From the IMG/VR virus record IMGVR_UViG_3300035179_000063, positions 1-23,204 of that record: DNA of 23,204 nt; one strand, 5' to 3'. Origin of the DNA: a virus. Shown here one piece after another: positions 4,601 to 23,204 of the stretch (the first letter of the stretch is position 1; the number at the start of each line of letters is the position of its first letter). The notes under the pieces were generated by a model. It did no database searches. It saw only the letters and a list, made by a program, of their open reading frames with translations, and had not been told where the DNA came from. Both the position numbers and the translations under genes were made by a program.

Positions 4601-5720
4601 AGAAGCAACTCGCAAACACAGCAAGGATCTTCTCAAGATCCCGGGAGTTCAGCTAGTCTACACGCGCACGAAGATCAAAGCAGGACTCGATACGAAGCAG
4701 CCTGCAACCGTGGTCTGTGTCGAAAAGAAGCTGCCGCCTAGTGCGCTCAAAGCTCTCAGCATTCCAATGATTCCCGCTGAGCTCAACGGAACCGTAACCG
4801 ACGTCATCGAGATCGGCAAACTCACAGCCCCTCCGCCGACGTCGAAAGTCAAACTACTCGGCGCAGCGGATCATCAGAAGAGATACCGCCCGAAAGTCCC
4901 CGGCGGAGTCACCGCGATTGAATACTGCTCCACAGCCTGCACTCTAACCGCGTGGCCTTGGAGTGATAAAGTCGGGGAACCTGTCGCCTTACAATGTTGG
5001 CATTGTTGCCGAATGCAGAAATGCGCTGAAGGCTGGATCCTTCAGCCCTCACCAATGGATCTCGGCATCTATCCCGCAGACGTGATCGCGCAGTTCATGG
5101 CAGGAGATATTGAGAATCCGAAGACCGACAGCGGAATCAGCCGCCAAGTTCAGCCCGGCGGATTCGCAACGATGAACATCTTCGGCCTGGGCTCCTTCAA
5201 AGGCTACATCGTCCCAGAAGTGGATGATCAGTTCATCAAGTCAGGTCGAACGACAGCCATCACACAGAGCACAGTCTACGCGCTTGACGGAGTAGGCAAC
5301 ATCAGTTATCCCGACAAGACTCGCCAGAAAGAAGATCTGATCGTAACTGGTAAGATGCTTGAAGGCGGAGACTCATCGAGCCCCGCCAAAGTGATTCGAG
5401 ACGGAGTAATTCAGCGGCCACTTGCAGGGCAAGGATTCGCAGGCAGCGACGTTATCTCATGCTTCATCAAGATCCCCAACATCATCAAGGATCCTGCGCT
5501 CGCTCCTTGGAGACTCAACTTCGACTATGAGTATGAAGAGCCGACGCCTCCACCGGGGCCGCCAGAGGATCCTTGGCAAGAATTCCTGAAATGCGCTCAG
5601 AAAGCTGACGGCGATTTCTTCGGAGTCTGGAAGTGTTTCCTTGACTACTTGCGTAAGGTGTGGCCGTTTAGAGCGAGGGTCGAAATTCGCAACGGCGAGG
5701 TCATCATTCGAATCAAATGA
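4572..5720 (+). CDS. Trypsin-like (chymotrypsin-fold) serine protease (382 aa)
   Basis: TTG start at 4572. Residues about 22-85 form an N-terminal alpha/beta domain (IPGVQLVYTRTKIKAGLD, VVCVEKKLP, TVTDVIEIGKLTA) like the one preceding the catalytic domain in a family of bacterial/archaeal S1-type peptidases with a PGGV-TAGT...NNHV layout. The catalytic residues can be placed: His144 in QCWHCCR (NNHV position), Asp186 in KTDSGI (VDAAI position) and Ser268 in GGDSSSP (GDSGS position), helped by KSGRTTAITQSTV (about 223-235) and GQGFAGSD near the end. The cysteines flanking the His (CWHCC) are unusual. No signal peptide is seen. A proline-rich hinge (about 327-335) leads to a basic C-terminal tail. 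Coupled by ATGA to the membrane-protein reading that follows; it may act in lysis or virion maturation. Confidence 0.75.
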   Translation: MAENEVTRAREATRKHSKDLLKIPGVQLVYTRTKIKAGLDTKQPATVVCVEKKLPPSALKALSIPMIPAELNGTVTDVIEIGKLTAPPPTSKVKLLGAADHQKRYRPKVPGGVTAIEYCSTACTLTAWPWSDKVGEPVALQCWHCCRMQKCAEGWILQPSPMDLGIYPADVIAQFMAGDIENPKTDSGISRQVQPGGFATMNIFGLGSFKGYIVPEVDDQFIKSGRTTAITQSTVYALDGVGNISYPDKTRQKEDLIVTGKMLEGGDSSSPAKVIRDGVIQRPLAGQGFAGSDVISCFIKIPNIIKDPALAPWRLNFDYEYEEPTPPPGPPEDPWQEFLKCAQKADGDFFGVWKCFLDYLRKVWPFRARVEIRNGEVIIRIK

Positions 5721-5734
5721 CAGGAGGGATGCCG

Positions 5735-6001
5735 ATGTACGAACAAATCATCATCGCGATTGCGGCAGCCATCATCTACGGGCTTGCTGGATACTTCAAG
5801 AGCTCAGGGGAGACTTTCGATAAGGAGAAGTTTCTCACGACAGTCGTGATCGGTCTCGTTGTGGGAATCATTCAGGTCTATGTGGGCGTCAGCTATGGAG
5901 CGGCCTACACCCTCGCGCTCTCCGTAGGCATCATCGCGATGGTCGAGAATATCATGAAAGCGATCTATCGCCACATCTTCGTTCAGTCAGTCGCAAGATA
6001 G
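5735..6001 (+). CDS. Holin-like small membrane protein (88 aa)
   Basis: The frame opens at ATG 5717 (ATGA with the protease stop), but GGAGG at 5723-5727 is ideally spaced for ATG 5735, so I start there. Three hydrophobic segments are visible: IIIAIAAAIIYGLAGYF (about 5-21), FLTTVVIGLVVGIIQVYVG (about 34-52) and YGAAYTLALSVGIIAMVE (about 55-72), followed by a basic tail. Size, three TM spans and the position between a protease and an XhlA-like protein fit a class-I-like holin, though a general inner-membrane protein is equally compatible. After its TAG stop (5999-6001) the same frame stays open for 31 more sense codons to a second TAG at 6095-6097. Confidence 0.65.
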   Translation: MYEQIIIAIAAAIIYGLAGYFKSSGETFDKEKFLTTVVIGLVVGIIQVYVGVSYGAAYTLALSVGIIAMVENIMKAIYRHIFVQSVAR

Positions 6002-8819: not shown

Positions 8820-9566
8820 TCAGGGCCACACCTTAGAACCATATACGACCCCACCGGAGTTGTCGAGTAGTCCCGAGATCTGATCGTAGCGAAGTTTCAT
8901 ACCTCTTTCGTAGTACTTCCAGATCGCATGGCTACAAAAATCTGCCAACTGTATGCCTGGTGAATCTTGTGACTGTACGAACAGCACACTCTCGATTATG
9001 CGTGGTAACCGAGTGTTGCTGAGGAAAGGATTGAAACTGCTCCTAAGGACGATCCCATGCTGCTTGGCGTTCTTGATCAATTCCTTTAGTTTGGCATCAT
9101 GCTTGGTCTCTTCGGGATCCATTACGAAAATACCTAATCCATCCACTCGGTCTAGGTACTTGTGAAAGCGTGGGCAAATCAGCTGAAACGCCCAGACATG
9201 CGGGGAATAGGCGTTTGCACCGTATTTCGCATAGTGCTTCGCCTTATCGATGGCAGAATAGAACAAGACTGGCTTCAAGGTCGTAACCAAGTTAAAGATG
9301 TCATCGACCAAAGCTCGGCGATTTCCTATACCAAGAGTTTCGAATGGATGAGCCCCTGCAAGAATTGTTGACAATCTCAATTCCCTAAAATCCGTGAGCC
9401 AATTGAGATTATGCCTACTGAGAATGCCTCTTACGCTCTCGTCAGCTTTCTTCCACAGCTTCTCTTCAAGCGAAAATCCAGCTAGGACATACCATTTCGT
9501 TCGGCTCCTTCCCTGTGGCGGACACCAACCAGGGTCCCCACTCGCGTCGAGATATAGGAGATGCAA
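8820..9566 (-). CDS. DUF3800 family protein (248 aa), cargo of the mobile element
   Basis: Leftward gene, TTG start (complement of 9564-9566), TGA stop. N-terminal YLDASGDPG (residues 5-13), followed by KWYVLAGFSL, is the DUF3800 opening: an acidic residue plus Ser-Gly in a first beta-strand, as in RNase H-like folds. An acidic patch MDPEETKHDAK lies in the middle, and the C-terminal signature SPGIQLADFCSHAIWKYYERG holds the conserved QLAD. The full length fits the family. DUF3800 proteins are predicted nucleases of unknown substrate, often found near mobile elements and defence loci. Here it sits inside an element with inverted repeats, so it is either passenger DNA or part of the transposition or maintenance machinery. 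Codon use and GATC density look slightly different from the viral genes, in keeping with separate origin. Confidence 0.8.
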   Translation of the reverse strand: MHLLYLDASGDPGWCPPQGRSRTKWYVLAGFSLEEKLWKKADESVRGILSRHNLNWLTDFRELRLSTILAGAHPFETLGIGNRRALVDDIFNLVTTLKPVLFYSAIDKAKHYAKYGANAYSPHVWAFQLICPRFHKYLDRVDGLGIFVMDPEETKHDAKLKELIKNAKQHGIVLRSSFNPFLSNTRLPRIIESVLFVQSQDSPGIQLADFCSHAIWKYYERGMKLRYDQISGLLDNSGGVVYGSKVWP

Positions 9567-10132: not shown

Positions 10133-13100
10133 TTGACGGCTGCGAACATTACGGTCTTGCATCTGTCTCAATCAGATGGAGAGAGTGAGCAGCAGTTGGT
10201 CTCAGCCATCCGCCTCTTCGGGGGCACAAGCTCTGATCGAGCGAGAGCTCTCGAACAGATCCCCGTCACCAAAGGCGTCATGGACACAATCTATCCGTGG
10301 TGGTGGGACGAGAGAGAATTCCCAAGACGTGCCGTGATGACGGAGTGGTTCTACAATCCACTCAAGGGACAACCGCGCTACGTGGACATCTATCGTCTCC
10401 GCTCGCTCGCTGCCTCAGAATGGGTCTTCATGTGCACGAGCACAATCATCGAAGAGATAGCTCAAGTTCCCTGGGAGGTCGTGCCCAAGGATCCTAAGCT
10501 GCAAGAGGCTCCGCCTGAGCAGATCCTCAACGAGATTGATGAAGTCAACTACTTCCTGAACAACCCGAACGATAACAAAGGCGAGACAATCAACACCATC
10601 TTTCGAGCCATGCTCAGAGATTCGCTTGAGCTCGATGCAGGCTGCATCGTGAAAGGCTTCTCAGAGAGCAGCTATGACAGGCATCCAGCAGGAGGCTTCG
10701 AGCTGAGACCTCAAGGCGAACGAATGCTCCTAGAACTCTTCGCTCGAGACGGCGGCTCATTCCTGAAAGAAACTGACGTCAACGGAATCGAATACCGACT
10801 CTGGCAATATTCCTATCTGCATCCCGCAGTCGCACCCATCGAGTTCGACGTCAACGAAGTCGTTTATGCGATGCGATATCCGCGCAGCTACGGAGTCTAT
10901 GGATGGTCTGAGATTCAGAGCCTGGAGACTATTCTGAATATTCTGATCAACTCAGCTTTCACCAATGCGACCATGTTCCAAGAGTACGCTGTCCCGTCAG
11001 GCGTGGTCTCGTTCACAGGCTCCAAGGAAGATGAGGATCGCTTACGGGAATACTTCCGAACGGAGATCAAAGGCCGATTCCACAAGGTCGCAGTCCTCAA
11101 CAGAGAAGCCAAATTCGTGCCCCTAGCCTACACGAATCGAGATATGGAATTCCTCAAAGGGCAGGAATGGTTCGCTAAGCTGGTTTGGGCTGTCTACAAG
11201 CTGACGCCGACCGAGATGGGATTCCAAGATGAGATCCGCGAAACAGGCAAAGCGATGGCCGCGCAAGGTCGCATTCAGAAACGGAAATCTGTCTTTCCTC
11301 TGCTCCGCCTCATTGAGCAGGTCATGAACAATCAGATCATCAACGAATTCTCTCCGCGCATCAAGTTCCAATTCAACTTCGTGGATAAGGAAGAGGAATA
11401 CGCTGACACTCAGCTCGAGATCCAAGAGCTCTCTCAGGCCATGATGACGATCAATGAGTGGCGCAAGAAACGCAAGATCGGCGGGCCTGTCCCGTGGGGA
11501 GATCAACCACTCGCGATCACACTCGCAGAACTGCGAGGGCCATCAGGATTCGGCGGAGCTCCAAGCCCTCCCAAGCCTCCATCTGTGCCAAGCCCCGGCC
11601 AAGACGCTCTCAGACAATTCACGGCTGATGAGAAAGCAGGCATAGAAGCGACAAAGGCTTGGGGAGCTCGTGGAAATCCAAGCTACGACTTCGAAGACAA
11701 AGCAGACCGAGCAGCGCCAGTCTACACTTGGGATCAGACTGGCAAGCGGATCCTTCGGCTCGCAGACACAACGATCGCCTCCTCTGCTTTCGACAAGCAA
11801 TATCGCAGACCAACTCGCCCCGCGAGAGGCCCATACGCGGGACATGGCAAGCCTCCTGTTGCTCTCCCGACTGCGATGGGAGGTCGGCCAGACGAATCAT
11901 TCCGAGCAGGAGAACTAGCCCCCGGCCAGAATCCCGAAGAGATTCAACGCGCTCGCGATGCCATGAAGGATGAGATGGCTCTCGGCCCCATGACAAGAAT
12001 CGGGCCGCATAGGACAGGGCCTCATGATGAATTCCGTGGCGGAATGGGAGCTCACCGATGGGAGCGTGATGAGACGGGCCGAATCGCTATGGGAACTCAG
12101 GTCTCAAGGATTGCTCGCGATCGGCTTGCGCCTCCAAGAAGAGTAACGGATCCAGTCACAGATCCAGAGAGCCGAATCGTTCCAACACCGCCAATCAGAG
12201 CAGGCCCAATCAAGTATCCGCGAAACGTGCCGCCCGTAGAAATGGCGACAGCGCCCGGCGGAGTCGGCCCTCAACGTGAATCGCTCGGATTCTTGGAGGC
12301 TCCGAGGAAAGGCCGATTCATGAACAAGCAAGCCCCAGAGCATACGCATACAATCGCATTCCGTGGCCCCGTCAAAGCTGAGCTATCGCTCGCTCGCAAG
12401 CTGACATCAGTTCTCAGAAAGTTCCGAAAAGGTCTGCTATCTCGCGATCAGATTCTCCTTGAAGGCCGCAAAGCCATAGACGCGAATCAACTGCGAATCC
12501 TAGAGATCGCTCGGAAACGAGCAAGCCGAGTAATCGGCAAAGAAGTCCTAGAGCTCGCGCCAGAAGTCACGAATCGCCTAGAAGGAATTCGAACCCAAGC
12601 CTTGAGCGACTTTCAACGGATCATTGATGATGCGCGAGAGCTAGAGCCAACCCTCAAGATGTCTCCGCCTATTCCTTCGAAGGCAGGTGGCAAGCGAAGG
12701 GAAGCATCATTCCTGAAGACTCTGCTTCCTCCGCATGATCTGTATGTTGAACCCTTCGCAGGAGGAGCCGCTCTGTTCTACATGCTCGATCAGCCAGGCA
12801 AAGCGGTACTCAACGATGTGAATCCACGGTTCACGAAGATTTGGAACTGGATTAAGAGAGCCACACCGAAAGATGTCAAAGATCTGCAGAATAGAGATTG
12901 GGTGAACAATCGTCAGACATTCTTCAATCTCAAAAATAGTTTCGGACCTAAAACGGTCAACGATGATATCTGGAGAGAACTCTATCTCGCACGACACAGC
13001 TTCATGTCTCGAGGCGAAACATGGCGAGGAGACATCTCAGATCCAAAGTCTCGAGCAACATGGAATAGCCCTCCTTCATGGCTGAATAGGCTGGATCAAT

Positions 13101-13474
13101 ACAAGCAGCAGCTTACGAACACGCGAATCGAACAGAAAGACTGGAAAGAGATCCTCCGCACCTACGATGCGCCTGGCACGTTCTTCTACCTGGATCCTCC
13201 CTACGAGGACAAGTTTGTTCCCGACTTGGTTCGGCTGCTGCCACGGTTGAAGGGCAAGTGGCTTCTCAGCTTCAGTGACAACAAGGCGCTCATGCAGGGC
13301 CTCAAAAACGCAGGAGCCCACACCTTCATCGTGCCCGTCACGAACACGATCAACAAACCGACAGGGAAGACCAGAACACTCAGACAGGAATTAATCGCAA
13401 CGAATTATCCGATCCGGGTCCCCAAGGATCTCGTGTTCAAGGAGTTTCAGAGGATCCTAGACGATGCCAGATGA
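10133..13474 (+). CDS. Portal protein fused to a D12-class DNA adenine methyltransferase (1113 aa)
   Basis: One uninterrupted frame. Residues about 50-470 are a portal: WWWDEREFPRR, YRLRSLAASEWVFMCTSTI, YAMRYPRSYGVYGWSEIQS, then AKLVWAVYKLTPTEMGF and a C-terminal helix QLEIQELSQAMMTINEWR, typical of HK97-type portals that form the DNA gateway of the head. Residues about 470-740 are a Pro/Gly/Arg-rich linker. About 745-835 is a helical stretch like the N-terminal half of MuF head proteins. About 845-1100 is a full-length D12 methyltransferase: SKAGGKRREASFL (motif X, about 849), YVEPFAGGAALFY (motif I, about 871-883), catalytic DPPY at 1021-1024, then LLSFSDNKAL. The tail FQRILDDAR repeats FQRIIDDAR at 827-835. 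The start is uncertain: TTG 10133 lacks a ribosome site, and TTG 10196, just after the broken small gene ends, is an attractive alternative (1092 aa). Confidence 0.88.
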   Translation: MTAANITVLHLSQSDGESEQQLVSAIRLFGGTSSDRARALEQIPVTKGVMDTIYPWWWDEREFPRRAVMTEWFYNPLKGQPRYVDIYRLRSLAASEWVFMCTSTIIEEIAQVPWEVVPKDPKLQEAPPEQILNEIDEVNYFLNNPNDNKGETINTIFRAMLRDSLELDAGCIVKGFSESSYDRHPAGGFELRPQGERMLLELFARDGGSFLKETDVNGIEYRLWQYSYLHPAVAPIEFDVNEVVYAMRYPRSYGVYGWSEIQSLETILNILINSAFTNATMFQEYAVPSGVVSFTGSKEDEDRLREYFRTEIKGRFHKVAVLNREAKFVPLAYTNRDMEFLKGQEWFAKLVWAVYKLTPTEMGFQDEIRETGKAMAAQGRIQKRKSVFPLLRLIEQVMNNQIINEFSPRIKFQFNFVDKEEEYADTQLEIQELSQAMMTINEWRKKRKIGGPVPWGDQPLAITLAELRGPSGFGGAPSPPKPPSVPSPGQDALRQFTADEKAGIEATKAWGARGNPSYDFEDKADRAAPVYTWDQTGKRILRLADTTIASSAFDKQYRRPTRPARGPYAGHGKPPVALPTAMGGRPDESFRAGELAPGQNPEEIQRARDAMKDEMALGPMTRIGPHRTGPHDEFRGGMGAHRWERDETGRIAMGTQVSRIARDRLAPPRRVTDPVTDPESRIVPTPPIRAGPIKYPRNVPPVEMATAPGGVGPQRESLGFLEAPRKGRFMNKQAPEHTHTIAFRGPVKAELSLARKLTSVLRKFRKGLLSRDQILLEGRKAIDANQLRILEIARKRASRVIGKEVLELAPEVTNRLEGIRTQALSDFQRIIDDARELEPTLKMSPPIPSKAGGKRREASFLKTLLPPHDLYVEPFAGGAALFYMLDQPGKAVLNDVNPRFTKIWNWIKRATPKDVKDLQNRDWVNNRQTFFNLKNSFGPKTVNDDIWRELYLARHSFMSRGETWRGDISDPKSRATWNSPPSWLNRLDQYKQQLTNTRIEQKDWKEILRTYDAPGTFFYLDPPYEDKFVPDLVRLLPRLKGKWLLSFSDNKALMQGLKNAGAHTFIVPVTNTINKPTGKTRTLRQELIATNYPIRVPKDLVFKEFQRILDDAR
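12608..12637 (+). repeat. Coding repeat bordering the methyltransferase, left copy
   Basis: Encodes DFQRIIDDAR. Compared with 13442-13471 (EFQRILDDAR), 8 of 10 residues are identical (the others conservative) and about 22 of 30 bases match, with differences mainly at third positions. The two copies bracket the methyltransferase module exactly. Confidence 0.6.
13442..13471 (+). repeat. Coding repeat bordering the methyltransferase, right copy
   Basis: Encodes EFQRILDDAR, the last ten residues of the portal-methyltransferase protein. It is the partner of 12608-12637. Base divergence says the duplication, if that is what it is, is old or has been kept by selection on the protein. Confidence 0.6.
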
Positions 13475-16678: not shown

Positions 16679-17842
16679 ATGTCTCAGAAACTTGAAGGAA
16701 TGCCACAGTTCGGAGATTCCCCGATTGGAACTCCTGCTGATCTCCTAGCCAACATGGTCGGCCTCGCAGCCTTCCCAGAAGGCACAGTGATCTACGAAGG
16801 TCTGAAGCCCAACGGCGAACTCGGCAAAGACTTTCGACAGATGTACCTCGGATGGATTCGCAAGAAGATCTGGGGCAACGCTATCAAGACGAAAGGCGTC
16901 TTGGACTCCACAGCGGCAATCATCCACACCACGACTGACCAAGAGATCATAGACACCACGCGGAAGGAATGCCCTCTGATGGAGCTTCTTCCGCAGGAGA
17001 CGGCACGCGGCAAAGTCGCATCGTATGACGTGCTGACCGCTAGAGGCGGGGCAGCCTTCGTGACTGAAACCGTAGCCGCTCAAACGCCACCCAGCGACAC
17101 CTACGCGAACGCAACGAAAGCCCTCTCCATTGCGACGTCATGGGGCGGATGGACTGACTTCGCCCTAGCTGCACTCGCAAGCCAATACCCGACAAGAGAC
17201 GCCCGAGCTCTCGAGATCCGAAACAAGACTTGGAGCCTGAACGAGCTCTGGGAGAACGAGCTGATCAACGGCTCATCTCCTGCGGGCGCGGCAGCGTCAG
17301 GTTTTGTCGGAATCAGAGCTGAGATCAAGACCAGCCAGACCGCGAACTCTCTGAACTTCGACCTCGCCGGGGCTGATGTCACAGACGCGGACATTGACAA
17401 TGCCATAGCCGCATCGGTTCAGCTCAACGTCAAGCCCAACTTGGCTTTGACTGACCTAGTGACATGGCAGAAGATCAAGCAACTGATAATGTCGCTTGTC
17501 CGATACGTGAACCCTGAGACCGAAATCGCGTGGGGTCTCAAGGCTCTCGCATGGGCGACACCATACGGAGTCATGCCAATAGTCGCGAGCAAATTCATGA
17601 ACTACGCAGCAGCAGCACGCGAGATCCTGCTGATTGACACCAAGTTCCTCGCTCAGAGGCTACTCTTGGACAGCACAATGGAGATGCTCGCGAAGGTAAC
17701 CCTACAACAGCCCTTCGTGATCAAGAAGTTCTCAGTCGGAATTGACAAGACGCAAGCGGTCGCCCAGACCTACAATAACAACGCTTGGCCCGCAACCACG
17801 ACCGGAACGTCGAAGATGGCGAGACTCTACAACCTAGCCTAG
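16679..17842 (+). CDS. Major capsid protein, HK97 fold (387 aa)
   Basis: ATG 16679 follows GGAGGAAGAGAG, the best ribosome-binding site in the head block, as expected for the most abundant protein. The predicted order suits an HK97-type capsid: an N-terminal arm, an E-loop/spine region (KECPLMELLPQETARGKVA, then YDVLTARGGAAFVTET), an A-domain with long helix and Ala-rich strands (ATSWGGWTDFALAALASQY), and the C-terminal part (PYGVMPIVASKFM, LLIDTKFLAQRLLLD). Its position straight after the protease-scaffold gene supports the call. No long delta domain is present, in line with a separate scaffold. Confidence 0.8.
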   Translation: MSQKLEGMPQFGDSPIGTPADLLANMVGLAAFPEGTVIYEGLKPNGELGKDFRQMYLGWIRKKIWGNAIKTKGVLDSTAAIIHTTTDQEIIDTTRKECPLMELLPQETARGKVASYDVLTARGGAAFVTETVAAQTPPSDTYANATKALSIATSWGGWTDFALAALASQYPTRDARALEIRNKTWSLNELWENELINGSSPAGAAASGFVGIRAEIKTSQTANSLNFDLAGADVTDADIDNAIAASVQLNVKPNLALTDLVTWQKIKQLIMSLVRYVNPETEIAWGLKALAWATPYGVMPIVASKFMNYAAAAREILLIDTKFLAQRLLLDSTMEMLAKVTLQQPFVIKKFSVGIDKTQAVAQTYNNNAWPATTTGTSKMARLYNLA

Positions 17843-18425: not shown

Positions 18426-18905
18426 ATGCCGAAGAGTCTGATCGTGAGATCTCGTAGCGAAGCATGTGTAGACGCAGGGAAAGGCTTCGTCAGCCACACA
18501 GGCCCGCGGACTATGAGCGCGGGAGATAACCGACTCGCCAAATTCGGCACAGGATCCTCGAAGGTCATTCGAATCACACGGATCATCTGCTCCGCAGACT
18601 CCACGCTTCGATTCAGAATCACTCAAGCTCCCACGACAACCGCTGACGGAACCGCGCAAGGCGTCAGGAACCGACGCATGGGTAAAGGCCAATCGAATGA
18701 GGCTGTGCTCTACTATGGCCCCACAGTCACCGCAGAAGGCGATCTAGTCTACGACTGCTGGGTGAATCCCGCGACTCCCCTGATCCTAGACCTCACAGAT
18801 TCGCCTTGGGTGATGGATCCGGGCAACAGCATACTCATAACCGTGGCCGCAAGCGCGGGAAACAACGCTTCGTTGGGGATCGAGTGGGACGAAGAGCCCC
18901 GCTGA
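18426..18905 (+). CDS. Probable virion structural protein (159 aa)
   Basis: ATG 18426 after a GGTGAG sequence. A second beta-rich protein following the capsid block: VIRITRIICSADSTLRFRIT, YYGPTVTAEGDLVYDCW and ILITVAASAGNNASLGIEW form alternating strands, with Gly/Thr/Asp turns. Its architecture resembles the preceding 166-residue protein in strand content and size but not obviously in sequence. A capsid-surface or head-completion role is inferred from location. Followed by 55 bases and a strong GGAGG for the large surface protein. Confidence 0.5.
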   Translation: MPKSLIVRSRSEACVDAGKGFVSHTGPRTMSAGDNRLAKFGTGSSKVIRITRIICSADSTLRFRITQAPTTTADGTAQGVRNRRMGKGQSNEAVLYYGPTVTAEGDLVYDCWVNPATPLILDLTDSPWVMDPGNSILITVAASAGNNASLGIEWDEEPR

Positions 18906-18960
18906 AACTGCTAAATAGGTTCACGTACCACTCCGTTACTGGTAGGAGGTCGCTCAGGGA

Positions 18961-21858
18961 GTGAGGCGAATGAAGCTAACCGGGATCCTAGCCCTGACGA
19001 TGCTGATTCTTCTAGCTTCAGGTTTCAATTCAGCCGAGGCAGCTCTCCCAAGTTCGACGTCGAACTCGTTTCTCTCGAATGCTGCCGCAACCGCAGTCTC
19101 GAATCTCTGGGATTCGAGCAGAGGCGCTTTCAAAGCCTCGCCTCTCACTGAGCCGTACAACTATTGGGTTGACGATCAAGGCAAGATGCTTGAGCTTCTT
19201 GCTGCAAGTCCGAACTATTGGAGTTATGGCTCTCAGGTTCGCTCATTCATCTCGAACCATGTCACGGGCGCGGGAAGCGCAATTAGGCGAGACATCATTC
19301 AGAAGCCCACGATCGAAAGCCCGAATCCGCTGGCTTTCGTGGTTCAGAATCGCCTCATAGAAGCCTATGGAGATCTGAGCAAAGCTAAGGATCGCAGTTT
19401 CAAGATCCTCTATCTCCCGCAAGGAACTCTGATGAGCGTCATTCAGGGTCATGTGGTTTGGAACGGCACAGCAGACCTAGACCTGAGCTATGTCTATCCT
19501 CCAACTGCATACTTGATCACGTCAGGGACAAGCGGCGGACTAGAATACGCTCGACTGACTCAGATCTGGGATCTCACAGGATTCAAGATGACGATAGACT
19601 ACACGTTCTGGGAGCATCGCGCATACCTTGAAGTCGGATACAGTTTCTATGCGAAGGCGAACATGACTGACGTGAAAGTTGTCGTTCCACTGGATCAGCT
19701 CGATTGGTTTGGCTCCACAATGTTCGCGGGAGGGCCGCATTTAGGCTATCAATGGGTTTGGATCCCCGGCTATGCAGATCAGAAGAGCAACGACACGCCG
19801 AATCAGCACTTTCTCCCGAATCCCGCTCAATGGAATGCGACGTGGTTCATGGTTCACATGCACGACAAGCCTGACGGAGTGAGCTCGAGCCTCGCAATCG
19901 TGGCCGATTGGGGAGCCAACAAGACTGCTCTCGGAGCCGTAGATAACGCGCTCACAGGATCCGAGCTGCCGCCTCTGCGAAACTCTCCGAACCTTCATTG
20001 GCTCAAACAGTACGCCTTTCTCGGAGCGATGACGCTAGGGCAGACGAAGACTTTCAGCCTCAAATACTATTTCTTGGACGGACATGACTGGACGAATCTC
20101 TCTCCGACATACAGCGAGATCTTCAATCTCTGGAATCTAGCTGACAAGGATCCAAGCCAAAACTATCAGTATGGAGCTCTCGTCTACGGCCTCACGAAAA
20201 TGTATCAGGCCACAGGAGATTCCAACTATCTAACCTTGGCCGTGAGGATCTGGGCGAATTGGGATCGAATGTTCCGAAGTGCTGGCACATATCCCCATGT
20301 CGCAGGAACCTACTTGCAGAGCCTCCCCTTCATGCTTCGCGGAGAGCTCCTTCTCTATTCCTTCTCAAGCGATCCTGGATTCCAAGTTCAAATGAATCAG
20401 GCGATACAACGCGCCCTAGACAAGCTGCTTGAGACGCAGCAACTCAACGGTGCGATGCCCAACTATGGAGGCTTCCAAGAATGGCGCTGGTACAACGAGA
20501 CATCAGGAATCCAGTATTGGGGGAACAGCTATCTCGACTTCACCGCTCCCGCGATTCGGGCGCTCGCAGATTACTACAACGCACGAGGAAACTCGACAGT
20601 TCTCTCTCGAATCACGACTGCGACAAATCACTTCAAGGTCGCGGATGGAACGAGCAACTATCAATATGTCGAATGGGATATCATCGGGCAAGTCGAGCGA
20701 TATCACATTGTTCCCGCCGGGATCATCGTGGGCGGCCAGAATACGACCGCCACAATCTACGATTGGGCTTGGCCGTCCTACAAGTCTGCGATGATCTCTC
20801 AAGCCTACGCGAGCACTCTTGACAGTCTCGGATACAGTCAGCCGATTGCTATGCGAGCGATCTCTCAGCTTTGGTGGAAAGCCACTCTGAATTCGACGCG
20901 AACCGTCGTTTACATCTTCCCTGACAAATACGAGACGAACAGTGAAACGCAGCCTTGGGGAGCTATCGGTTGGAAGGAATGGATGGATGCAGCGACCGCT
21001 CTCACAGGATCCGCGCAGATGGCTCCTGCCGCGATTCTCTCAAGCCTCCGCGTCAACATGACCGCGACATCGTGGGGCGCGAGCATTCTCAGCGTTCAGA
21101 TGTCAGGCGCGTCGGGAGAGACGATCAAGGTCTCAGTGGCAAGCGGCAAAGAGATCGCGGGAGTCTATGTCTCAGGAGCGTCAAGCTATTCGTACACTTG
21201 GGATCCATCTCGAGACGTGGCAGACGTCTCAATCGCGGTGCCTTCCACGGGCACGTACACGCTTCAAATCTACTATCCGACCAACTATGATTTCCATCTC
21301 GAATATCCATACTTCAGGATCACATGGACAGGTTCGGGAGGCACGAAGAATTTCACGGGCTTCATGGTTGCGAATGAGCGCCTTGGAATCGTGAACTCTT
21401 CGAGGACAGGATTCAATGTCGGATGGGCATATCCCTCGTGGTGGATCTTCCTCAATGACACAGCATCAGGCCAGAATGAGATCTGGGTTGTCTACAACAA
21501 GCCTCTTGGATGGGTCTTATCGAACAGCCCTATGCCTTCAAGCAGCTATGGTCAGCAGACCTTGATGGGGAACTTCACTCTCAACGGGATCCTGCATGTG
21601 AAAGCTGATTCAGGAGTCTTCGGTTACGGTCCGAGAATGGCGCAGATCAACGGTCTCACAGCGCCCTACGGAAACGGGACATGGAGCGGATACCGCTATG
21701 AGCTCACAGTTCTACCGATCCCCGGCTACGCATACGGGCAGATCTACATCACTTGGGAGCAAGCTGGCCCCGGCACAGCCACGATCATCGTGGTCGCAGT
21801 TGTCGCGGTGACTGCTGGCGGAGTAGTCTATGTCGCAAGGAAGAGGATTAAGAAATGA
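18961..21858 (+). CDS. Large secreted, membrane-anchored protein with glycosidase-like helical region (965 aa)
   Basis: GTG 18961 lies 10 bases after GGAGGT (ATG 18970 is possible but further away). Residues 1-27 form a signal peptide (KLTGILALTMLILLASG, cleavage near AEA). The last 30 residues hold a TM helix (ATIIVVAVVAVTAGGVVYV) and a basic stop (ARKRIKK). The ectodomain has many Asn-x-Ser/Thr sites. A beta-sandwich-like part (about 130-370) precedes a helical region (about 380-690) with repeated helix pairs and aromatic/acidic clusters (FQEWRWYNETSG, IQYWGNSYLDF), resembling alpha/alpha-toroid glycoside-active proteins, then Ig-like beta domains. Lying between capsid and connector genes, it may be a membrane-displayed spike, receptor-binding or glycan-degrading protein, or a cargo gene. 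No catalytic pair can be assigned with confidence. Confidence 0.7.
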   Translation: MRRMKLTGILALTMLILLASGFNSAEAALPSSTSNSFLSNAAATAVSNLWDSSRGAFKASPLTEPYNYWVDDQGKMLELLAASPNYWSYGSQVRSFISNHVTGAGSAIRRDIIQKPTIESPNPLAFVVQNRLIEAYGDLSKAKDRSFKILYLPQGTLMSVIQGHVVWNGTADLDLSYVYPPTAYLITSGTSGGLEYARLTQIWDLTGFKMTIDYTFWEHRAYLEVGYSFYAKANMTDVKVVVPLDQLDWFGSTMFAGGPHLGYQWVWIPGYADQKSNDTPNQHFLPNPAQWNATWFMVHMHDKPDGVSSSLAIVADWGANKTALGAVDNALTGSELPPLRNSPNLHWLKQYAFLGAMTLGQTKTFSLKYYFLDGHDWTNLSPTYSEIFNLWNLADKDPSQNYQYGALVYGLTKMYQATGDSNYLTLAVRIWANWDRMFRSAGTYPHVAGTYLQSLPFMLRGELLLYSFSSDPGFQVQMNQAIQRALDKLLETQQLNGAMPNYGGFQEWRWYNETSGIQYWGNSYLDFTAPAIRALADYYNARGNSTVLSRITTATNHFKVADGTSNYQYVEWDIIGQVERYHIVPAGIIVGGQNTTATIYDWAWPSYKSAMISQAYASTLDSLGYSQPIAMRAISQLWWKATLNSTRTVVYIFPDKYETNSETQPWGAIGWKEWMDAATALTGSAQMAPAAILSSLRVNMTATSWGASILSVQMSGASGETIKVSVASGKEIAGVYVSGASSYSYTWDPSRDVADVSIAVPSTGTYTLQIYYPTNYDFHLEYPYFRITWTGSGGTKNFTGFMVANERLGIVNSSRTGFNVGWAYPSWWIFLNDTASGQNEIWVVYNKPLGWVLSNSPMPSSSYGQQTLMGNFTLNGILHVKADSGVFGYGPRMAQINGLTAPYGNGTWSGYRYELTVLPIPGYAYGQIYITWEQAGPGTATIIVVAVVAVTAGGVVYVARKRIKK

Positions 21859-23204
21859 GTCTAGCTTTCCAAGACGTCAACGGTCTCTCATTGGAGGCTC
21901 TTCGCCTTGACGAATTGCAGCCGACCTACCGAATCTTCCGACTCAAGAACACAGGATCGTCAAAGGTTGAGAATGTCAAGGTTCGCCTAGAAGAAGTCGG
22001 CCATGCAGTCGCAGACGCTTCGCAACTCGCGCAGCGAGCCGTTCTCGAGATGGATTACACTCGACATAGCAGCGGAGCGCCAGAGCAGCAGTTTCTCGGC
22101 GTCGGCCCGATCTCAGTCATGACGGAGGATCCTGAAGAGCTCGAGGCCGTTCTCATGACAGGTTGGCTTCAACTGAGCGCAGACACTTTCCGATGGGGCA
22201 GCCTTCTCGAGATCGGCATGTTGGATATAGGGGAGCTCGTGGATCTCTACGCGAGATATCAGAAGCCAATCTATGCAGCCACGCTGACTCTCCAATTCTC
22301 AATCCGCAACATTGGAACCGACACGCTTGAGAGCATGGTTCTGACAGGGCAGGGCTCCGACACTCTCAGCCTTGACGGTTCGCTCTTCTCGAGCTCGATC
22401 AACCTTGGAGTCATGGCTCCGGGCACCGTCAAGACTGTCTGGATCAAGACCTCAAGCATCTCTCCGCGAGCCGTCAACGGCAAGATTGAAGCTCTCTCAG
22501 GAACCGTCTCGAGCGGAAGCATCCGTTTCGACGTGGCGGGAAGCCGAGCGTACTGTTCTATTCATCAGGTTCGCAGCTATCTCCAAACGATCAACGTCGA
22601 AGTGATCACGAAAGATGAGGAACTTCTGGATCTGATCTATCGCTCTGCTGATGAGATTGATCGCGCAACGAAAAGGCGCTTCGATCTAGTCGCTGTTACT
22701 GAACGCTATGATGGTGTCGGACAGCAGAAGCTCGTTCTCGACAACTATCCGATCGTAGCTGTTCATGAGGTCAAGATCTTCAACTTCAACAACCAACTGA
22801 TCCGCGATATCAAGGAGACTGATTCAGACTTCGCAAGCAATCTCATCACAGATTCGGAGCGCGGATTCATCACGCTGCCTCCGAACGTGGTGATCATCTT
22901 CCCTGTCCCGCTCGCAGCGATGTTCTACTGGCCCTATTCGAGCTACGGCAGCCACACTCTCAGAGGCACAGACTATGACTACGTGAACCGATTCGGGAGA
23001 GGCGTGGCGAACATTGAAGTCATCTACACCTACGGCTTCGCGACTCCGCCTCCCGGAATTCGAGACGTCTGCATGAAGATGGTCGTAATTGAGATGCTCA
23101 AGAAGAAAGGAGCATCCGACACACAAGGATCCTCAGTCGTCTCAATCGCGGGAATGTCTGAGACTTACACTCAGCAAGGCGGCCAGCAAGCAGGATCCGG
23201 GCCC
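21855..23204 (+). CDS. Head-tail connector with N-terminal extension, partial at window end
   Basis: ATG 21855 overlaps the previous stop (ATGA), and the frame remains open for 450 codons to the last base, so the end is missing. Residues about 1-230 form a beta-rich domain (TYRIFRLKNTGSSKVENVKV; LTLQFSIRNIGTDTLESMVL) like Ig/CARDB-type modules. From about 232 the sequence matches the gp6-type connector plan: CSIHQVRSYLQTIN, EELLDLIYRSADEIDRATKR, RYDGVGQQKLVLDNYPIVAV, VNRFGRGVANIEVIYTYGF and IRDVCMKMVVIEML. gp6-like proteins are usually about 100-200 residues and form the ring under the portal, so the N-terminal addition is unusual and may be surface-exposed on the neck. Confidence 0.7.
   Translation, partial: MSLAFQDVNGLSLEALRLDELQPTYRIFRLKNTGSSKVENVKVRLEEVGHAVADASQLAQRAVLEMDYTRHSSGAPEQQFLGVGPISVMTEDPEELEAVLMTGWLQLSADTFRWGSLLEIGMLDIGELVDLYARYQKPIYAATLTLQFSIRNIGTDTLESMVLTGQGSDTLSLDGSLFSSSINLGVMAPGTVKTVWIKTSSISPRAVNGKIEALSGTVSSGSIRFDVAGSRAYCSIHQVRSYLQTINVEVITKDEELLDLIYRSADEIDRATKRRFDLVAVTERYDGVGQQKLVLDNYPIVAVHEVKIFNFNNQLIRDIKETDSDFASNLITDSERGFITLPPNVVIIFPVPLAAMFYWPYSSYGSHTLRGTDYDYVNRFGRGVANIEVIYTYGFATPPPGIRDVCMKMVVIEMLKKKGASDTQGSSVVSIAGMSETYTQQGGQQAGSGP

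Follow-up and report, generated by a model that had tools for sequence, protein, structure and literature searches.

A VP4-like, predicted membrane-anchored surface protein encoded between the head genes and the head-tail adaptor gene in a tailed virus that probably infects sediment archaea

The window analysed here is the whole 23,204-nucleotide stretch of IMG/VR virus record IMGVR_UViG_3300035179_000063, a 23.2-kb record carrying a gpA-type terminase, a portal and an SU10/HK97-type major capsid protein gene (16679–17842, + strand; PF17236, E = 1e-10). The SU10-type capsid gene is followed by a 166-aa ORF, by a 159-aa phrog_5335-like head-region ORF (18426–18905, +) and by an intact ORF at 18961–21858 (+), which starts with GTG and encodes 965 aa with no internal stop. 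The next gene (21855–23204, +) shares an ATGA overlap with the 965-aa gene and ends at the window edge; its full-length relative in contig L001 matches the head-tail adaptor phrog_442 (E = 2e-14), and further downstream L001 has a Neck1-like gene together with a baseplate gene weakly resembling Mu gpP. The window adaptor begins with an N-terminal extension of about 230 aa. A previous sequence-only reading had located the 965-aa gene between head genes and a connector with ATGA coupling, and this arrangement is borne out, the downstream relative being an adaptor. Since the genome encodes a terminase large subunit, a portal, an HK97-type major capsid protein and head-tail connectors, the characters by which Caudoviricetes are recognised, it is, judged by gene content, a tailed virus of that class. 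Fuselloviridae was rejected as an assignment for the genome, which has the terminase, portal, SU10-type capsid and adaptor genes in place of a spindle-virus genome.

A Shine-Dalgarno-like GGAGGT (18945–18950, +) can be read directly 10 bases 5' of the GTG start. Signal peptide and transmembrane calls were made by hydropathy and by conservation among relatives, and they place a signal peptide at residues 1–27 (19041 being its last position, from 18961, +), where RRMK is followed by a hydrophobic stretch (residues 4–22) and a cleavage-like AEA/A site, and a C-terminal transmembrane segment at about residues 935–958, hydrophobic over 935–953 and followed by the basic tail ARKRIKK (21763–21855, +). 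By hydropathy, this export and anchor layout is unique to the 965-aa protein among the window proteins. N-x-S/T sequons are also enriched, with 16 observed in the mature part against 7.9 ± 2.5 expected from same-composition shuffles (P = 0.002), just 6 occurrences of the reversed motif, and a density of 3.0 sequons per 1000 aa in the other window genes. The signal peptide, C-terminal anchor with basic stop and numerous N-glycosylation sites of the sequence-only reading therefore hold, and its proposal of action at the host surface is supported as likely.

Close relatives were found in five other virus contigs (L001–L005), four of them full-length with 72–91% identity and one partial, as the L005 contig ends within the gene. 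The 159-aa ORF lies 5' of the gene in 5/5 of these contigs and the adaptor lies 3' in L001–L004. Wider relatives, gathered by a terminase search, included genome G009 (contig L038), in which the same place is taken by a protein of 862 aa that has this layout yet is just 24% identical to the window protein, and the L044/L050 contig, whose copy is 92% identical to the L038 protein and likewise sits 5' of an adaptor. The family in this analysis comprises the window protein, five close members and two far members. The window protein runs in the order signal peptide, dyad hairpin, beta-rich insertion, predicted helical toroid region, beta-rich domains and C-terminal transmembrane segment. The signal peptide and C-terminal transmembrane layout is kept in each complete homologue, including 4/4 full-length close relatives and the far relative; the sequon excess of the far branch (L038/L050 type) is not significant (P 0.15–0.35). 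Genome G010 (L039) retains the neighbouring genes and a major capsid protein 66% identical to that of the window, and has only a 68-aa ORF in the slot. No homologue of the protein was found in GenBank phages, plasmids or GTDB genomes, where the genome scans used short exact patterns that miss distant relatives; tblastn with the window protein matched no record of the phage collection, and the motif NYWxDDxGK recovered no additional family member from viral contigs.

The same slot before the adaptor in G011, a more distant relative, holds another carbohydrate-type protein, a 1215-aa LamG/DUF2341/GH43-like product (L040:2251-5898) with no predicted transmembrane segment. The N-terminal adaptor extension is missing from the short adaptors of G011–G013.

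Residues 385–700 (20113–21060, +) are predicted to form an alpha/alpha toroid, although the model of this region is weak (pLDDT 47, pTM 0.56), and the AlphaFold model of the full-length protein was unusable (pLDDT 31). Structural matches of this low-confidence model were to GH76 and AGE-type toroids, and a comparison to the SSV19 tail (7xdi_F) gave Z 10.1 and 2.5 A over 140 residues with 24% identity, the highest identity among the structural matches listed; the viral library also listed a betafusellovirus end-filament protein. These matches are on their own a weak lead, because toroids resemble each other and the model is poor, and the lead was therefore checked by sequence. Matches from the sequence libraries were no more than hints and all aligned on repeated helical hairpins. 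In the PDB they were to six-hairpin glycosidases and epimerases. Pfam GH127 scored E = 2e-4 and 20.8 bits in the window protein against a cut-off of 24.9, and 25.4 bits, above the cut-off, in L004. Enzymes of GH127 possess catalytic and metal-binding cysteines, and GH127 membership was rejected as the window protein has zero cysteines. The likeness to toroid carbohydrate-active proteins that had been noted from the sequence is thus supported in a qualified form, by a weak GH127 match and by GH76/AGE-type matches of a low-confidence model.

Profile comparison gave a firmer identification. A profile of seven tailed-virus proteins matched the VP4 proteins of ASV1 (1.1e-6), SSV6 (2.2e-6) and SSV19 (1.9e-4), where the best of 800 shuffles reached 0.62 and E-values refer to a small test set. 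Alignment by hhalign to VP4 over residues 2–110 gave P = 1.9e-6, and BLASTP identified a second collinear block between residues 500–676 of the window protein and 872–1043 of VP4. This block contains NSETQPWG (residues 660–667; 20938–20961, +), which is identical in the VP4 of SSV6, ASV1 and SSV19 and whose Trp666 corresponds to VP4 Trp1033. As a DNA pattern searched across 2.9 million viral contigs, NSETQPWG occurred only in this group, SSV6, ASV1, L068 and L066, of which L068 is one more VP4-bearing contig and L066 was discarded as a chance match. We conclude from these sequence comparisons that the window protein is shown to be homologous to the VP4 tailspike of the betafuselloviruses SSV6, ASV1 and SSV19, and this identity of a tailed-virus protein as a VP4 relative is a new result. 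No relation to the SSV1-type VP4 (C792) was found. The SSV6 record names Saci1002 of Sulfolobus acidocaldarius as a similar sequence.

Betafusellovirus VP4 proteins (SSV19 VP4, SSV6 B1232, ASV1 A1231) share with it the signal peptide, a YW/FWxDD dyad hairpin near the N-terminus, a large insertion, a predicted helical toroid region containing TYxxSL and NSETQPWG, a beta-rich part and a C-terminal membrane segment. The window protein is about 250 residues shorter, with one C-terminal transmembrane segment in comparison to two within the longer C-terminal hydrophobic part of VP4, and its gene lies beside a head-tail adaptor in a tailed virus whereas VP4 is encoded among spindle-virus genes. The VP4 homology, the sequon enrichment and haloarchaeal-virus matches of some other genes would together point to an archaeal host, and the virus is probably a tailed virus of sediment archaea; many bacterial phages are also among the matches of the terminase and portal, and a host search by terminase match in genome contigs with short exact patterns found none. 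Published VP4 homologues have been reported mainly from hot springs (PMC12042106).

Virions of SSV19 cut the N-glycan of their host, with release of mannose, an activity that the authors of the study credit to VP4, for which Phe66, Asp69, Asp70, Tyr640 and Trp1033 are key residues (PMC12042106). All five positions align with residues in the window protein (Tyr68, Asp71, Asp72, Tyr451 and Trp666), and four of the five are identical, the exception being F to Y at position 68; the toroid part of this alignment depends on distantly related sequences and a poor model. The first three positions belong to YNYWVDDQGK (residues 66–75; 19156–19185, +), in which D71/D72, equivalent by alignment to SSV19 VP4 D69/D70, form a catalytic-type dyad, and Tyr451 (20311–20313, +) aligns to Tyr640. 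An adjacent catalytic-type Asp pair is also found in GH76 endo-alpha-1,6-mannanases, whose toroid resembles the predicted fold of the window protein and whose inactive variants in PDB titles carry D136N/D137N, a pair like D71/D72 in the alignment made via VP4. The window protein differs from GH76 in that its dyad is split from the main toroid by the beta-rich insertion and in being viral and membrane-anchored, and the Pfam GH76 profile gave no match listed against it at E up to 10.

In the L038/L050 branch the aromatic residue and the dyad are kept, the Tyr640 equivalent is unaligned and the Trp1033 equivalent is Leu or Val, and specificity or activity may therefore differ in this branch. The missing equivalents and the lack of a Pfam GH76 match count, as sequence comparisons, against the hydrolase reading preferred below, as does the non-significant sequon excess of the far branch. 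Glycosidase descendants that only bind are common, and the family could be an enzymatically dead descendant that binds or masks host glycans and excludes superinfecting viruses by masking, a reading to which the far branch lends some weight by lacking two of the five key residues. The Asp dyad is nevertheless invariant in both branches, the window branch has the identical residue at 4/5 of the key positions, and we regard this reading as improbable. The sequence-only reading had listed superinfection exclusion, glycan remodelling, biofilm release and a displayed spike as possible roles and missed the VP4 relationship; because the homology comes together with the VP4 key residues, the choice narrows to glycan hydrolysis.

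Comparison of L003 and L004 showed that the ectodomain has a history separate from that of its neighbours. The adaptors of these contigs are 98.6% identical (dS 0.04) and their upstream ORFs 91% identical, whereas their VP4-like proteins are merely 73% identical (dS 1.43). The L003 protein instead shares 88–92% identity (dS 0.25–0.37) with its window and L001 counterparts, although the adaptors of the window and L001 are saturated relative to that of L003 (dS above 2). Site by site, L003 is L004-type until just past the signal peptide (about 19,060–19,100 in the window), window-type to about 21,600 (residue 880) and L004-type from there through the transmembrane segment and adaptor, so that the stretch common to L003 and the window type within an L004-type background corresponds to 19060–21600 (+). 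These crossovers are seen in one metagenomic contig, for which a chimeric assembly is conceivable. The capsid proteins of the window and of the L004 type share 24% identity, while the ectodomain of L003, of the same background as L004, is 88% identical to that of the window, and conversely the window and L038 share capsid proteins at 70% identity and VP4-like proteins at 24%. Taken as sequence comparisons, these values are considered to show that ectodomain similarity is uncoupled from capsid similarity and that related viruses exchange the ectodomain by recombination, like a cassette. The description of the gene as an unusual moron in this position can be retained in part: the ectodomain is swapped and G010 lacks the gene, but a homologue lies at the same place, wherever flanks are present, in seven other contigs, as a comparison of related viruses had been expected to clarify.

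Our preferred reading, to which we give a probability of about 0.52, is that the gene encodes a GH76-like glycan hydrolase of the kind represented by betafusellovirus VP4, which is exported, anchored in the membrane and trims host-surface glycans late in infection. Fuselloviruses bud, so VP4 can be taken along with the particle. Archaeal head-tailed viruses contain no membrane lipids and exit by lysis (PMC10384203), and for this reason the transmembrane-anchored protein of a tailed virus most likely belongs to the cell. The decoupling from the capsid and the absence from the related G010 suit a protein adapted to its host and not to the particle. The hydrolase would be made together with the late genes and held in the host membrane with its enzyme part outside the cell, where it would trim surface glycans, most likely the S-layer N-glycans that may serve viruses as receptor; S-layer proteins are potential receptors of several archaeal tailed viruses (PMC10384203). 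Removal of a receptor surface glycan may be called the most economical role, as it could make progeny less prone to re-adsorb to the cell that produced them and to its debris and could exclude superinfecting viruses, while glycan trimming could loosen the envelope and ease release, and ectodomain alleles would be exchanged to suit the host glycan and not the virion.

An alternative is that the protein is displayed on the virion as in SSV19, for example at the neck via the extended adaptor, and cuts surface glycans at entry. In SSV19 the tailspike is formed by VP4 (PMC12042106), the known relative, which functions on the virion at entry, and the gene lies directly 5' of the head-tail adaptor. 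Between the window and L001/L002, a block of high similarity extends from near the gene start to roughly 700–800 bases inside the adaptor and includes its N-terminal extension (21855–22650), as might be expected for a virion partner, and the G011 slot protein looks like a virion fibre. Set against this, the signal peptide and transmembrane segment are conserved even though tailed virions assemble in the cytoplasm without a membrane, ectodomains vary independently of the capsid, and G010 has the extended adaptor with no VP4-like gene, and we consider virion display unlikely, though it is the strongest of the alternatives. The spike relative that was found carries export signals, and the proposal of surface action stands.

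The late-operon position would also suit an envelope-breaching lysis factor, an enzyme breaking down S-layer or glycocalyx from the cell exterior as part of host lysis. The ORF26 glycosyl hydrolase of HRTV-DL1, likewise an archaeal tailed virus, is proposed to degrade host surface glycans, and a surface-glycan hydrolase with a holin-like protein has been suggested for HRTV-DL1 lysis (PMC10384203). No holin-like partner was identified beside the gene in the window, and absence from G010 and swapping with host-type specificity suit recognition better than lysis, making this reading quite unlikely, if a little less so than a purely binding descendant.

Within the preferred reading of a cell-surface glycan hydrolase, its placement as a receptor-destroying enzyme of archaeal tailed viruses, in which the spindle-virus spike-enzyme family is anchored in the host membrane rather than on the particle and forms an exchangeable cassette matched to the host glycan, is held more tentatively, at somewhat below even odds. 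The homology links two unrelated archaeal virus groups, tailed and spindle-shaped, through one putative host-surface glycan enzyme. Action on the cell surface would make the protein an archaeal equivalent of receptor-destroying enzymes and would open to direct test the part that surface glycans play when viruses infect archaea. The two viruses with near-identical adaptor genes and different ectodomains provide a natural swap experiment.

Further features were observed elsewhere in the window and its relatives. A single 1113-aa ORF (10133–13474) joins a portal protein (residues 98–446) to a D12-class DNA methyltransferase (residues 851–1025); a portal relative in L007 matches residues 1–835 only and is immediately followed by the next gene, and the methyltransferase part therefore looks, from this comparison, inserted or fused in the window. 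An antisense DUF3800 gene (8820–9566) lies between terminase and portal, and the same interval in L013 holds an antisense OGG-like gene (4711–5859), and this interval appears to be a site of gene exchange. In the related genome G001, L014:58-921 and L014:3296-5395 code for a radical SAM protein similar to spore photoproduct lyase and for a large N6 methylase, the latter resembling type IIG enzymes that haloarchaeal tailed viruses carry. A head-region ORF with a long initial (DP)n repeat was also found (L041:5408-6148, L042:10017-10769), and the length of this repeat is unequal in these two near-identical contigs.
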